Below are positions 25,630-29,111 of a DNA stretch of 64,000 nucleotides, one piece after another. Where the stretch lies: assembly GCF_005871165.1 (NCBI RefSeq), contig NZ_SWKP01000010.1, positions 62,001 to 126,000 of the forward strand. The letters are read 5' to 3'. A program made the translations under genes and the position numbers. Source of the DNA: Maricaulis alexandrii. Lineage in GTDB: Bacteria; Pseudomonadota; Alphaproteobacteria; Caulobacterales; Maricaulaceae. Below the pieces are notes generated by a model. It searched no databases. It was not told where the DNA came from and was given only the letters and a program-made list of their open reading frames with translations. Each line of letters begins with the position of its first letter. The stretch's first letter is position 1.

Positions 25630-25705
25630 GGAAGGCCTCCGGCTGGATCACCCGATATGACGCAGTTCGCCCCCTGAGGTCCAGCGCAGGCGATCCGGCA
25701 ATTCT

Positions 25706-25720
25706 ATAGCTTAAAGCTAT
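25706..25720 (+). promoter_or_regulatory. LysR/OxyR-type operator upstream of the carbonic anhydrase gene
   Basis: ATAGCTTAAAGCTAT is a perfect 7-bp inverted repeat around a central A and fits the OxyR half-site ATAG-N-T-NNN-A-N-CTAT. It lies 77 bp before the ATG, and no good -35 hexamer follows, which suits an activated promoter. A related site lies before the OxyR-like LysR gene 2.4 kb away (28104-28118). Confidence 0.6.
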
Positions 25721-25797
25721 CGTCATGGCGCTTTTATTCAATTGGATACAAATGCCCGGACACCCCACATCGGCGTCGGCCAAAGAGAGGAGTTGCC

Positions 25798-26529
25798 ATG
25801 AAATACGTACTTGCCGGCTTGTTGGGCGCAGCAGGAACCCTGGGAGCCGCCCAAGCCGACGAATGGGGTTATACGGGCGCCGGTGCGCCGGAGAACTGGG
25901 GCCAGCTTTCGCCGGAGTTCGCGGTGTGCAGCACCGGCACCCAGCAAAGCCCGATCGACCTGACCGGCGCCTTCGAAAGCGACGGTGTGGCGCCCGAACT
26001 CAGCTTCGGTGTGGTCAGCGGCCTGGAGGCCGAGCGCAATGCCCATGGCGTGACCTATCATGTGCCGTCCGGCGCGGCGCACATCACCCTGCACGGGCAG
26101 AGCTATGACCTGCTGCAATTCCACTTCCACGCCGCCTCGGAACATCATGTGGACGGCGAGTCCTTCCCGCTGGAAGTCCATTTCGTGACCGCCAATGGCG
26201 GTGACCTCGCCGTTGTCGGCGTGCTCTTTGAGACCGGTGAGGCGCATGACACGGTGGATACGCTCTGGTCCGCCATCGGCGAACCCGGCGACCGCGAGCC
26301 CCTGGAGACCCGCATCGACCTCACCAGCATGCTTCCGGGCGAGGACAGTGCCTGGCGCTATGAAGGCTCGCTGACCACCCCGCCCTGTTCGGAAGTCGTT
26401 TCCTGGACCGTTTTCACAACGCCCCTGACGGTGTCTGAAGCGCAAGTGGAGGCCTTCATCAGCGCGGTTGGCGAAAATGCCCGTCCGCCGCAACCGCTGC
26501 ATCGCCGTTACGTCCTGCTGGACGACTGA
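25798..26529 (+). CDS. Periplasmic alpha-type carbonic anhydrase
   Basis: Interconverts CO2 and bicarbonate. 243 residues with signal peptide (MKYVLAGLLGAAGTLGAAQA), so periplasmic. Alpha-CA motifs: EWGYTGAGAPENWGQL, GTQQSPIDL, the zinc histidines in LLQFHFHAASEH (about 103-114) and EVHFV, and SLTTPPCSEVVSW with Cys paired to an earlier Cys (FAVCSTG). Ribosome site GAGAGGAG. The mRNA ends at a strong terminator. It faces, tail to tail, the PII-like and SbtA genes, suggesting joint work in bicarbonate supply; the shared operator type supports this. Confidence 0.96.
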   Translation: MKYVLAGLLGAAGTLGAAQADEWGYTGAGAPENWGQLSPEFAVCSTGTQQSPIDLTGAFESDGVAPELSFGVVSGLEAERNAHGVTYHVPSGAAHITLHGQSYDLLQFHFHAASEHHVDGESFPLEVHFVTANGGDLAVVGVLFETGEAHDTVDTLWSAIGEPGDREPLETRIDLTSMLPGEDSAWRYEGSLTTPPCSEVVSWTVFTTPLTVSEAQVEAFISAVGENARPPQPLHRRYVLLDD

Positions 26530-26563
26530 CCCTGACCGCCTGGATTTGTACCCCTGGCATAAA

Positions 26564-26597
26564 GGGCGCGCGAGTTTCGCGCGCCCTTCTTTTTTCC
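26564..26597 (+). terminator. Terminator of the carbonic anhydrase gene
   Basis: GGGCGCGCGA (26564-26573) pairs with TCGCGCGCCC (26577-26586), followed by a long T-rich run. Its hairpin also lies just beyond the stop of the convergent PII-like gene. Confidence 0.9.
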
Positions 26598-26616
26598 GGC
26601 CGCCCGACTGTCGGGC

Positions 26617-26922
26617 CTAGCCCTGGCGGGCCGCAACCGGCCAGGCGATGATGTCACCGTGCAGATGATCCAGGGTGTCATGGAGCTCCGGGCTGATCCG
26701 GTCTGCCAGGCCGCGCTCCAGTGTCATCACGACCAGGACACGGCGGCCGGACGGGGCGATCTGACCGGTCCGGTTCCAGCGCCCCTCCGGCGTGCGGCCG
26801 GACTGGCCCGGCAAGACCAGCCAGCGCTCGACGCCGAGGCGCTCCAGCAATTCCTCCAGGCGTCCGGCCTGGACCGCATCGATTTCCATTTCGAACCGCA
26901 CATGGGCGTCAGACTGTGTCAT
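26617..26922 (-). CDS. PII-like signalling protein paired with SbtA
   Basis: 101 residues starting MTQSDAHVRFEMEIDAV, with RLEELLERLGVERWLVLPGQSG, then GQIAPSGRRVLVVMTLERG, matching the ferredoxin-like fold of PII-related proteins encoded with SbtA permeases (SbtB-like). SbtB proteins bind adenine nucleotides and gate SbtA. I do not see the canonical SbtB C-terminal Cys loop, so the ligand may differ. ATG overlaps the sbtA stop (TGATG), so the two are translationally coupled and probably act together at the membrane. Confidence 0.72.
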   Translation of the reverse strand: MTQSDAHVRFEMEIDAVQAGRLEELLERLGVERWLVLPGQSGRTPEGRWNRTGQIAPSGRRVLVVMTLERGLADRISPELHDTLDHLHGDIIAWPVAARQG

Positions 26923-27917
26923 CACGCAGCTCCCAGAACCAGTTGTGCCAGAGTGAAGTAAAGCGGGATCCCGAGCAGGAGATTGAACGGAAAAGTGATT
27001 CCCAGCGACAGGGTCAGCGACATGGCCGGCTTGGCATCGGGCAAGGCCAGACGCATGGCGGCCGGAACCGCAATATAGGAGGCCGAGGCGGCCAGCGTCA
27101 TCAACAGGGCCCCATTCCCCGGCGTGAGACCGATTAGGGCCCCATTCCCCGGCGTGAGACCGATTAGGGCCGCGACGCCCAGAGCGACACCGGCCGAGAG
27201 CAGGGGCATGTAGAGACCGTGAAGCACGACGCCCGGCTTCATGCGGCGGCCATGCTCGACCAGGCCGCGCCCGGCGATCAGACCCATGTCCAGAAGGAAG
27301 AGGCAAAGCACACCGCGGAAGGCATCCACGAAGAGGGGCGAGACCGCCGTCATGCCGGCATCGCCGGACACCCATCCGATGACGAAAGCGCCGAGCAGGA
27401 GCACGATCGACCCGTTGGTCAACGGTTCCACGAGTTTGAGACCACCCGTCCGCCCGGCCGCGCCGGCCAGCAGCAGGCCTGTGAGAATGGCGGGCGCTTC
27501 CATCGCTGCGGCGACCGCGACCATGGCCCCGTCTCCAGGCAGGTCGAGCAGGCGCGCGGCATCCGTGGCCGCAATGAAGGTGACGATCGAGATCGAGCCG
27601 TAATGCGCCGCGATGGCGGCCATGTCGACGCGTGGCAGGGCGGTTGTGACCCGCAGCAGGCCGAAGCTCAGCACCGGCAGACTGGCCGACAGCACGATAC
27701 CCGCCAGAAGGACCGGGACGATATCGCCCAGGCTGGCGCGCGCCATTTCCGCACCGCCCTTGAAGCCGATCGCCATGATCAGGAAGAGCGACAAACCCTT
27801 GGCAAAGGCCTCGGGAAATTTCAGGTCTGACCGGATGAAGGCCGCGGCCAGACCCAGAATGAAGAAAAGAACGGGGGGCGAGGCAAAGGTCGCCAGGGCG
27901 ATGGATCCGAATTCCAA
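26922..27917 (-). CDS. sbtA: SbtA-type sodium-dependent bicarbonate permease
   Basis: 331 residues with about ten membrane helices in an inverted repeat. Family marks: PPVLFFILGLAAAFIRSDL, LSLFLIMAIGFKGG, IAAHYGSISIVTF, MEAPAIL and SLTLSLGITFPFNLLLGIP. In cyanobacteria SbtA imports bicarbonate with Na+. The frame is open far upstream, but TTG 27917 has GGAGG 8 bp before it and gives the normal N-terminus (MEFGSIALATFASPP). It is coupled to the PII-like gene. A 30-bp exact tandem duplication adds ten residues, IGLTPGNGAL twice, between two helices. A large hairpin lies just upstream of the ribosome site. Confidence 0.88.
   Translation of the reverse strand: MEFGSIALATFASPPVLFFILGLAAAFIRSDLKFPEAFAKGLSLFLIMAIGFKGGAEMARASLGDIVPVLLAGIVLSASLPVLSFGLLRVTTALPRVDMAAIAAHYGSISIVTFIAATDAARLLDLPGDGAMVAVAAAMEAPAILTGLLLAGAAGRTGGLKLVEPLTNGSIVLLLGAFVIGWVSGDAGMTAVSPLFVDAFRGVLCLFLLDMGLIAGRGLVEHGRRMKPGVVLHGLYMPLLSAGVALGVAALIGLTPGNGALIGLTPGNGALLMTLAASASYIAVPAAMRLALPDAKPAMSLTLSLGITFPFNLLLGIPLYFTLAQLVLGAA
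27106..27165. repeat. Exact 30-bp tandem duplication inside sbtA
   Basis: Unit one 27106-27135 and unit two 27136-27165 are identical, and the next 6 bp match the unit start. In frame it encodes IGLTPGNGAL twice. Exact identity, including third codon positions, points to a recent slippage or a deletion/duplication-prone site. Confidence 0.95.
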
Positions 27918-27940
27918 AACACGAGCCTCCAGGCATGAAG

Positions 27941-27988
27941 CGTCCGGCGGCTGTTGCGCGAGGGGGGCGAGGCAACAACCGCCGGACG
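27941..27988 (-). promoter_or_regulatory. Large hairpin in the sbtA mRNA leader
   Basis: CGTCCGGCGG (27941-27950) pairs with 27979-27988, and TGTTGC (27952-27957) with GCAACA (27972-27977), one C-A mismatch between them, giving 16 pairs and a 14-nt loop. In sbtA mRNA it ends about 11 nt before the GGAGG. Placement suggests a translation-control element; I recognise no known riboswitch. Confidence 0.55.
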
Positions 27989-28103
27989 GAACCCTGCCGG
28001 TCGACACTGAAAGGACCGGGATCAGGCCGGAACGGCAGAGCAGGACGGCCACGCTCTAGACCCCGCCCTCAATAAAGAACAATATATCTGAATTACCGTT
28101 GGA

Positions 28104-28118
28104 TTAGCCTGAGGCTAT
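28104..28118 (+). promoter_or_regulatory. LysR/OxyR-type operator in the sbtA-lysR divergent region
   Basis: TTAGCCTGAGGCTAT contains the perfect inverted repeat TAGCC-TGA-GGCTA and matches ATAG-N7-CTAT except for the first base. It overlaps the place where the lysR ribosome site would be (3 bp before ATG 28122), so binding should repress lysR; it lies 187 bp from the sbtA start. A weaker similar unit begins 22 bp upstream (28082). Confidence 0.55.
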
Positions 28119-28121
28119 GGA

Positions 28122-29111
28122 ATGCGCCCCACTTTCCGGCAATTGGAATACCTCGTCGCCGTCGACGAGACCGGCCGTTTCTCGGCCGCCGCCCAGAGCC
28201 TGCATGTCAGCCAGCCCAGCCTGTCAGCGCAGATCGCCGAAGCGGAATCCCATCTGGGGTTCAAAGTCTTCGAACGCGGTCGCCACGGTGCCATCGCGAC
28301 ACCGCTCGGACGGGAATTGCTGGAACGCGCCCGTGCCGTCCTGACCTCGATGTCGGATATCAAGCGCCTGGCTCAATACGGCCAGGACGGTCTGATCGGA
28401 CAGGTTCGCCTTGGCGTACTGCCGACGATCGGCCCCTATCTCCTGCCCCGCTGCACGGCGCAGCTGCACGCGCGCTATCCCCGGCTGCGCCTGTCCATTC
28501 GCGAGGAATCCTCGGTCGATCTCAACCAGACCCTGACAGAGGGCCGTATGGACATCGTGATTTCGGTTCCCGAAGACCATCCCGGCTGTGCCAGTGCGCC
28601 CCTCTTCCATGAGCGCCTCTGGGCGGCCTTTCCGCCGGACGACCCGCTCGCGCAGAAGTCCGGACCGGTCACGCTGGAGGAATTGTCGGGCCGCGCCTTC
28701 CTCACCCTGGGCCTGGGCCACCGCCTCAACCGCCTCGTCGCCGACCTGGCCGAACGGGCTGACGGCCATCTGCCGGCCGATTACGAGGGGACCAGTCTGG
28801 ACGCGATCCGCCACATGTCGGCCCTCGGGGCCGGCATCGCCGTACTGCCGGAACTCTATGTCCGTTGCGAGGCGGAACGGGACAACAGCCTGGTCTTCCG
28901 CCTGATCGACGACCCCGGCGCGCAGCGCGATATCGCCCTGATCTGGCGGCACAACTCCCCGCTGGCCTCGGGCTTCCAGGCGATCGCCGATATTCTGGAA
29001 ACCGCCGCCGCGCATGTTCTCGACGTCGCAAATCCGGACGCAGACCCGGGAGCCGGCAGGAAAAAGGGGCGCCCGGCGCCCCTCAATCAAGCATTCACAT
29101 CGAAGGCATAG
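28122..29111 (+). CDS. LysR-family regulator, OxyR-like without redox cysteines
   Basis: 329 residues. N-terminal helix-turn-helix (FRQLEYLVAVDETGRFSAAA, QSLHVSQPSLSAQIAEAE) and a substrate-binding-like domain close to OxyR (QVRLGVLPTIGPYLLP, TEGRMDIVISVPEDHPG). Where OxyR has Cys in GHCLRDQ and a second Cys nearby, this protein has LGLGHRLNRLVADLAE, so disulfide sensing is not possible at those sites. It diverges from sbtA, and its likely operators precede its own gene and the carbonic anhydrase gene, so bicarbonate or carbon status is a plausible signal. Its 3' end overlaps phoB by 25 bp and contains the phoB terminator. Confidence 0.9.
   Translation: MRPTFRQLEYLVAVDETGRFSAAAQSLHVSQPSLSAQIAEAESHLGFKVFERGRHGAIATPLGRELLERARAVLTSMSDIKRLAQYGQDGLIGQVRLGVLPTIGPYLLPRCTAQLHARYPRLRLSIREESSVDLNQTLTEGRMDIVISVPEDHPGCASAPLFHERLWAAFPPDDPLAQKSGPVTLEELSGRAFLTLGLGHRLNRLVADLAERADGHLPADYEGTSLDAIRHMSALGAGIAVLPELYVRCEAERDNSLVFRLIDDPGAQRDIALIWRHNSPLASGFQAIADILETAAAHVLDVANPDADPGAGRKKGRPAPLNQAFTSKA
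29061..29082 (-). terminator. phoB terminator inside the 3' end of lysR
   Basis: GGGGCGC (29066-29072) pairs with GCGCCCC (29076-29082); on the minus strand five T (29065-29061) follow. It lies 5 bp past the phoB stop, within the last codons of the convergent LysR gene. Confidence 0.75.

Follow-up and report, generated by a model that had tools for sequence, protein, structure and literature searches.

LysR-type regulators of inorganic-carbon uptake, such as CcmR/NdhR, CmpR, and CbbR, are known from autotrophs, and the known regulators of the Na+-dependent bicarbonate transporter SbtA likewise come from cyanobacteria and other autotrophs. The PII-like protein CPII of Thiomonas is associated with the carboxysome of an autotrophic host, and SbtB, the PII-like partner of cyanobacterial SbtA, carries a C-terminal disulfide loop. 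To our knowledge, bicarbonate sensing and supply have been little studied in bacteria that do not fix CO2. Here we describe a locus in a 64,000-nucleotide stretch of the Maricaulis alexandrii genome (RefSeq assembly GCF_005871165.1, contig NZ_SWKP01000010.1, positions 62,001–126,000 of the forward strand; hereafter the window) that contains genes for an alpha-carbonic anhydrase (alpha-CA), SbtA, a PII-like protein, and a LysR protein. The locus is likely to be a small inorganic-carbon supply regulon under an OxyR-related LysR regulator without the two redox cysteines of OxyR, and it is best read as a new form of the LysR-run inorganic-carbon regulons of autotrophs.

Coexpression of cyanobacterial SbtB is reported to have abolished uptake by SbtA in E. 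coli (PMC8438413). An SBT-family permease has been reported in SAR11 genomes (PMC10030771), and inorganic-carbon toolkit genes have been called widespread in autotrophs and heterotrophs in a paper whose main text does not contain the word LysR (PMC10880623). A second OxyR-like LysR protein, the cysteine-based LsrB of Agrobacterium, is reported to control katG and is described as unique to Rhizobiales (PMC11975290). In the open-licence PubMed Central literature, we found no recognized description of a LysR-SbtA-carbonic anhydrase regulon in heterotrophs.

Results

The Locus and Its Operator Sites

Four genes lie within 3.4 kb of the window:

25798–26529, plus strand: alpha-CA gene (PF00194, 130.7 bits, cut-off 27)
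26617–26922, minus strand: gene for a PII-like (CPII/SbtB-like) protein, assigned by homologs and fold; its ATG start overlaps the sbtA stop (TGATG)
26922–27917, minus strand: sbtA, Na+-dependent bicarbonate transporter family, TTG start (PF05982, 317.3 bits, cut-off 27)
28122–29111, plus strand: lysR, an OxyR-related regulator without the OxyR redox cysteines (HTH_1 and LysR_substrate domains)

These positions and families, proposed in a preliminary description made from the sequence alone, are borne out by Pfam, homologs, and fold. The anhydrase aligns with the solved alpha-CA 4c3t (E = 5.8e-52), including the HFH motif and the second His region that correspond to the zinc histidines, and its N-terminus, judged by eye, looks like a Sec signal; the window SbtA aligns with the solved SbtA 7cye (E = 6.4e-10). 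Because the sbtA stop and the PII-like start overlap, the two genes probably form one transcription unit. The same description had noted an ATAG-N7-CTAT pair, exact before the alpha-CA gene and with one mismatch in the sbtA/lysR gap; both sites were confirmed, each with a putative second half-site:

25706–25720, plus strand: main half of the operator at the alpha-CA gene (ATAGCTTAAAGCTAT), exact ATAG-N7-CTAT
25737–25751, plus strand: candidate second half of the same operator, 16 bp beyond the main half on the alpha-CA side; a weak match with slightly OxyR-like letters
28104–28118, plus strand: main half of the operator in the sbtA/lysR gap (TTAGCCTGAGGCTAT), 3 bp upstream of the lysR start, ATAG-N7-CTAT with one mismatch
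28073–28087, minus strand: candidate second half of this operator, 16 bp away from the main half on the sbtA side; a weak copy of the [A/T]TATATTTnAnCTAT consensus

The window holds 10 matches to ATAG-N7-CTAT with at most one mismatch (3.85 ± 1.80 expected; 10 is reached in 0 of 100 shuffles). The bare count over the 3.35-Mb genome shows no excess (5 exact matches versus 6 for the reversed pattern), and the weight of the argument therefore rests on conservation in relatives. The longer core TAGCNTNANGCTA, which was picked after inspection of the two window sites, has two exact matches in the genome, both in the locus.

Operator Conservation with and without the Regulator

The comparison covered 137 genomes of the Genome Taxonomy Database (GTDB) family, 19 of them Maricaulis, and 14 control genomes; L and G numbers denote loci and genomes. 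A lysR+ set of 46 genomes was defined by a cut that we placed at E = 7e-76 (next value 1.1e-68), and incomplete genomes (e.g., G103, 67%) may be misassigned as lysR−. Within 150 bp upstream of homologous lysR genes, a perfect ATAG-N7-CTAT occurs at 36 of 64 loci and a site with at most one mismatch at 61 (0.3 and 5.2 expected from shuffles); these loci are related rather than independent (36–100% identity to the window protein), and the count leaves out 12 loci in which lysR had no hit, as well as L089, the start of which is not covered. In many homologous lysR genes, the operator lies at or near the start codon.

At sbtA, the operator follows the regulator. With lysR directly beside sbtA, the site is perfect in 9/17 promoters and within one mismatch in 16/17, a group in which L042 and L123 come from the same genome, the L055 stretch is intragenic, and the L124 hit looks spurious. 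Other sbtA promoters have it perfect in 0/91 and within one mismatch in 3/91 (2.45 expected), this group including three same-genome pairs, a pair with a shared upstream stretch, and L102, which is the L070 locus and belongs to the nhaA-operon group. For sbtA inside nhaA-headed operons, 1/11 is perfect (119/120 loci counted in all). The sbtA genes beside LysR proteins of 26%–27% identity (L100, L107, and L150) have no ATAGNTNNNANCTAT match within two mismatches.

All seven alpha-CA genes in lysR loci have a perfect site, 77–82 bp before the gene and with changed spacer letters. The site is perfect in none of the unlinked alpha-CA promoters, whether in lysR+ genomes (0/6) or lysR− genomes (0/33; 3 within one mismatch, 2.27 expected). 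For delta-carbonic anhydrase (delta-CA; PF10563), with 30 of 36 places examined, the site is perfect in 8/17 promoters of lysR+ genomes (0.03 expected) versus 1/13 in lysR− genomes, a contrast with a one-sided Fisher value of 0.024, kinship ignored. Among the eight, the site in G049 adjoins lysR, and those in G001 and G006 are on the sbtA contig, that of G001 being doubtful since it overlaps a start codon. Matches to PF10563 itself were found in 36/137 family genomes and 0/14 controls. Where a beta-carbonic anhydrase (beta-CA) gene is linked to lysR, the site 110 bp upstream in L195 is perfect, whereas the script scored L231 at one mismatch and L194 at two; L231 nevertheless has a perfect site between lysR and beta-CA.

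Gene Order in Relatives

Matches to sbtA were found in 57/137 family genomes and a lysR ortholog in 46/137. The two occur together in 30 genomes and lie at most 6 kb apart in 23, the remaining seven having them on separate contigs (five) or far apart on one contig (two). An alpha-CA gene adjoins sbtA and lysR, with a PII-like open reading frame (ORF), in 6/19 Maricaulis genomes, the window genome counted; L123 repeats the window order of CA, PII, sbtA, and lysR, with an SbtA 85% identical. Another Maricaulis genome, G064, has no sbtA match, yet lysR and CA stand side by side and the CA site is kept, and G077 has lysR and sbtA with no alpha-CA match. In Rhodobacteraceae-type loci (L124, L127, L128, L144, L148, L156, and L157), lysR and sbtA are immediate divergent neighbors. 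Other genera of the family have nhaA opposite lysR, then a permease or DUF533 gene, and then sbtA-PII. The 4-kb inserts between lysR and sbtA were considered as DAB-type complexes; this was ruled out, the inserts that were read being nhaA (PF06965) with a PF13520 permease-type or DUF533 protein. An amino-acid-permease-type protein of ~700 residues lies between nhaA and sbtA in L063–L066, L070, L072, L074, and L075 (L072: PF13520, weak TrkA_C).

The regulator also has other anhydrases as neighbors. In L195 (G061, no sbtA match), the genes divergent from lysR encode a beta-CA (PF00484), a transporter of the SulP type (PF00916), and a permease; in L231 (G319), one of two lysR paralogs is divergent from beta-CA and SulP, and the other (L230) from nhaA. 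In L194 beta-CA and SulP come after lysR, and in L193 a delta-CA gene is upstream of it. Three unrelated anhydrase families and two bicarbonate-linked transporter families thus occur with one regulator clade, although the position of SulP beside an anhydrase is no proof that bicarbonate is the SulP substrate. The search of related genomes for both operators and for synteny, put forward as a check in the preliminary description, favors the proposed regulon of alpha-CA, sbtA-PII, and lysR. More distant LysR relatives (L232–L234; 44%–45% identity) also have a perfect ATAG-N7-CTAT upstream, the divergent gene in L232 being an isocitrate dehydrogenase gene (PF00180).

RuBisCO (PF00016) has no match in any of the 19 Maricaulis genomes; the same search matches 5/14 controls.

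An OxyR Relative without the Redox Cysteines

The nearest solved relatives of the window LysR by sequence are OxyR proteins (4x6g, E = 9.4e-42). Its score is below the NCBIfam OxyR equivalog cut-off (182.6 versus 329 bits) and below that of CbbR (85.6 versus 450 bits), and the positions of Cys199 and Cys208 (E. coli numbering) are occupied by Arg and Ala. Among 48 aligned rows (all from the window to L231, with L142 and L206 among them just outside the 44-row tree clade), position 199 is Arg or Lys in 45 and Cys in none, and every row carries Ala or Ser at 208; Thr/Ser100 and Arg266 are present in 48/48 and His198 in 46/48. Cys199 is likewise absent from 16 rows of more distant proteins, which have Arg, His, or Gln there, but 14 of them have Cys at 208. 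OxyR-type paralogs, in contrast, have both cysteines in 8/8 cases; the one in the window genome (L286, G000:C4:120500-124500) is divergent from an AhpC/TSA-family gene and has a perfect ATAG-N7-CTAT at its own start. A tree that leaves out L210, L205, and L245 places the regulator clade (44 rows, 99/99) apart from Cys-bearing OxyR (99/99). Judged by these alignments, the regulator is not OxyR, though OxyR-related. Its earlier designation as an OxyR-like LysR is borne out. The window LysR has three other cysteines (residues 111, 156, and 249), so thiol sensing by other means is still conceivable.

Bipartite Architecture of the Operator

When the lysR-divergent promoters were aligned on the main site, a second element appeared at 16 bp with the consensus [A/T]TATATTTnAnCTAT; it scores above 8 bits in 58/64, a figure that is partly circular because the second-element model was trained on the same promoters. 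In the CA promoters, which lay outside the training set, the 16-bp spacing is the best of 44 in the sum over all seven and in the window promoter, and the CA gene is thus placed relative to its site as sbtA is. Site pairs of LysR proteins usually comprise a recognition site and an activation site near the promoter, and with this layout it is likeliest that the regulator activates sbtA and CA and represses its own gene.

A gene-blind search for the bipartite pattern (one mismatch allowed) matched 82/137 genomes, versus 7 for the reversed pattern, with many matches at lysR or oxyR-type paralogs. Among the neighborhoods inspected, 19 stretches of our choice, bipartite sites away from lysR precede delta-CA (L328, L333, and L338; L329 at the delta-CA place) and nhaA (L339). 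In L331, L334, and L335, from three genomes of a single genus, such a site separates an aldo/keto reductase gene from a gene for a membrane protein of the Bax1-I family (families read in L334).

Two marks for telling LysR sites from OxyR sites were tried. Spacing was ruled out, as the oxyR/ahpC sites share the 16-bp arrangement. A letter-based discriminant gave 41/41 and 18/18 in leave-one-out, with an OxyR set drawn from some genera (g12 and g7 oxyR-type sites omitted); it was set aside as a general test because the main halves of dps-type L332 and katG-type L344 come out as LysR-like and the delta-CA main half of G016 as OxyR-like, and it lends weak support inside Maricaulis only.

SbtA and the PII-like Protein

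An ORF of 85–135 residues comes after sbtA in 106/120 loci examined, at least one of which (L144) is not a homolog as judged by eye; the window PII-like protein can be aligned with 32 of these ORFs and has 45% identity to the L123 homolog and 32% to the L081 homolog. It has no Pfam match by sequence, PF00543 included, although the L072 homolog does match PF00543 (1.7e-10). In its structure model (pLDDT 89.5), the best Foldseek match is CPII (5d4n, E = 1.8e-5), with SbtB (7egk_B) lower, and the protein downstream of sbtA is accordingly modeled with a PII fold. It contains no cysteine and therefore lacks a C-terminal disulfide loop of the SbtB type. A PII-like gene also lies between nhaA and the permease gene in L196 (G056), a genome without an sbtA match.

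The sbtA gene of the window has one peculiarity:

27106–27165, minus strand: exact 30-bp in-frame tandem duplication in sbtA, giving 10 extra residues in alignment with relatives

None of 14 aligned relatives has this duplication, which may be a recent mutation or an assembly error; the transporter of this strain may be impaired. In another Maricaulis genome, G070, the sbtA match (G070:C6:295459-296450) falls into three segments and shifts frame close to the N-terminus, and the gene is possibly broken; in G074 the match is in two pieces in the same frame. A duplication in G077 (L055), suggested by two match pieces, was ruled out, the gene having one intact frame.

Other Features of the Window and Genome

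The convergent genes lysR and phoB share a 25-bp overlap at their 3′ ends (29087–29111). The assembly comprises 3.35 Mb in 12 contigs and contains a beta-CA away from the locus. A perfect intergenic ATAGTTAAATACTAT (L281, G000:C1:583296) lies, by eye, between the rplI region and dnaB, with no obvious target.

Discussion

Proposed Mechanism

The genomic comparison supports the gene families, the conservation of the operator and its dependence on the regulator, the orientation of the sites, and the loss of the redox cysteines. Beyond these, we infer that the regulator activates and does not repress, what it responds to (a shortage of inorganic carbon, or alkaline pH together with Na+), that the PII-like protein acts as a gate, and how the bicarbonate is used. 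In the proposed mechanism, the regulator would occupy ATAG-N7-CTAT at its own start codon, probably repressing itself, and from the second half-site 16 bp further would activate the divergent sbtA-PII operon; a copy of the bipartite site would serve the alpha-CA gene in the same relative orientation. A shortage of inorganic carbon would thus lead the regulator to switch on both sbtA-PII and the periplasmic anhydrase. The anhydrase would equilibrate CO2 and bicarbonate, and SbtA would take up bicarbonate with Na+; the PII-like protein would probably gate SbtA as cyanobacterial SbtB does, closing it according to the bicarbonate or energy state. The imported bicarbonate may then feed the carboxylases of a heterotroph, in anaplerosis and in fatty-acid and nucleotide synthesis.

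A further step, which we put forward tentatively and regard as doubtful, is that an OxyR-related peroxide sensor has turned into a direct bicarbonate/carbonate sensor, in which Arg/Lys in place of the peroxidatic Cys would form an anion site in the kept pocket (Thr/Ser100, His198, and Arg266). Such a regulator would run whichever of the unrelated anhydrases (alpha, beta, or delta) and bicarbonate transporters (SbtA or SulP) its heterotrophic alphaproteobacterial host owns.

Several observations weigh against an inorganic-carbon regulon as proposed. The seven CA promoters belong to one orthologous lineage in one genus and are not seven independent cases, and in the single CA promoters the 16-bp spacing ranks 1, 1, 3, 3, 6, 3, and 1 of 44. 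No perfect site is present in 9/17 delta-CA promoters of lysR+ genomes, and some of the perfect ones lack a clear second half; beta-CA genes elsewhere in Maricaulis genomes have the site within one mismatch in 0/17 cases. The window SbtA carries the 10 extra residues of the duplication. In many genomes, including some in which sbtA has no match, the closest recognized gene on the divergent side is nhaA rather than sbtA, and this linkage may fit either a Na+ gradient that drives SbtA or a sodium/alkaline-pH signal. Lastly, the true OxyR of the window genome has a closely similar bipartite site, so that OxyR might also bind before the CA gene; in the window, the CA site has a slightly OxyR-like second half (−1.7 bits) and a LysR-like first half (+6.2).

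Alternative Explanations

The nhaA linkage is the basis of the strongest alternative, in which the LysR protein is a sodium/alkaline-pH regulator, a counterpart of E. coli NhaR with nhaA as its core target; sbtA would be included because transport is coupled to Na+, the anhydrase would help to balance pH, and CO2 would not be the signal. We consider this unlikely, though it accounts for much of the gene order: nhaA (PF06965 in L072 and L339) is the first recognized divergent gene in L057, L059, L060, L063–L066, L070, L072, L074, and L075, holds this position even where the genome has no sbtA match (L192, L198, L200, and L204), and, when unlinked, bears a bipartite site in L339, while distant LysR relatives adjoin nhaA (L236 and L246) or have a gene with a Mrp-type antiporter domain 2.6–3 kb away (L235 and L243). 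It does not account for the stretches read of the CA-bearing Maricaulis loci and of six Rhodobacteraceae-type sbtA loci (the seventh, L128, lying outside), which contain no nhaA, nor for beta-CA with SulP and delta-CA, which have no role in Na+/H+ antiport; in the tree, moreover, E. coli NhaR is a far branch.

That true OxyR binds the ATAG-N7-CTAT site of the anhydrase, with carbonic anhydrase as part of the peroxide response, is improbable. The oxyR/ahpC sites do have the same tetranucleotides and 16-bp spacing, and the bipartite search also matched genes for a peroxidase (KatG-type; L340 and L344) and a ferritin-like protein (Dps-type; L332), which look like OxyR targets, so that the two regulators cannot be told apart by the pattern. 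However, the CA site is confined to lysR loci and is missing from all 33 promoters in lysR− genomes, many of which have an OxyR-type paralog (eight paralogs were checked for cysteines). At position 5 of the main half, 18/18 OxyR sites used have A and 7/7 CA sites have C or G, the OxyR set coming from some genera and one dps-type and one katG-type site from other genera having a LysR-like main half.

Least probable of all is that lysR regulates sbtA and itself only, the anhydrase being an accidental neighbor and its site a relict or a random palindrome. The CA gene does form its own transcription unit, and 12/19 Maricaulis genomes have no alpha-CA beside lysR, but the seven CA sites are all perfect despite altered spacer letters, and CA and site are retained together in G064.

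Comparison with Known Systems

If the locus is an inorganic-carbon regulon, one clade that is easily mistaken for a peroxide regulator would mark an inorganic-carbon (and sodium) regulon in the Maricaulis family and in Rhodobacteraceae-type genomes, and its operator is directly testable. If the altered pocket does serve to sense anions, the clade would clearly illustrate how a redox sensor can become a bicarbonate sensor.

The regulator resembles OxyR in the ATAG-N7-CTAT operator at its own start and in the mostly kept pocket residues 100, 198, and 266; it differs in that its clade is separate, lacks Cys199 and Cys208, and is linked to sbtA, CA, SulP, and NhaA. LsrB is the nearest published parallel found, as a second OxyR-related LysR in alphaproteobacteria. 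LsrB, however, is described as cysteine-based, as controlling katG, and as unique to Rhizobiales. The E. coli CynR-cynT pair also has a lysR-type gene divergent from a carbonic anhydrase gene, but it belongs to a cyanate operon, and CynR is a long branch next to OxyR, outside the 44-row clade.

On the transporter side, cyanobacterial SbtA-SbtB likewise combines an SbtA-family transporter with an adjoining PII-like gene, and the window PII fold matches 7egk_B, although the identity to SbtB in the fold match is 13%. Thiomonas CPII, solved with bicarbonate (5d4o/5d4p), is the best fold match of the window protein, again at 13% identity. With CcmR/NdhR, CmpR, and CbbR, the locus shares a LysR protein over SbtA-type bicarbonate uptake; it differs from them in the branch of the LysR family, in the operator, and in a host genus without a RuBisCO match.

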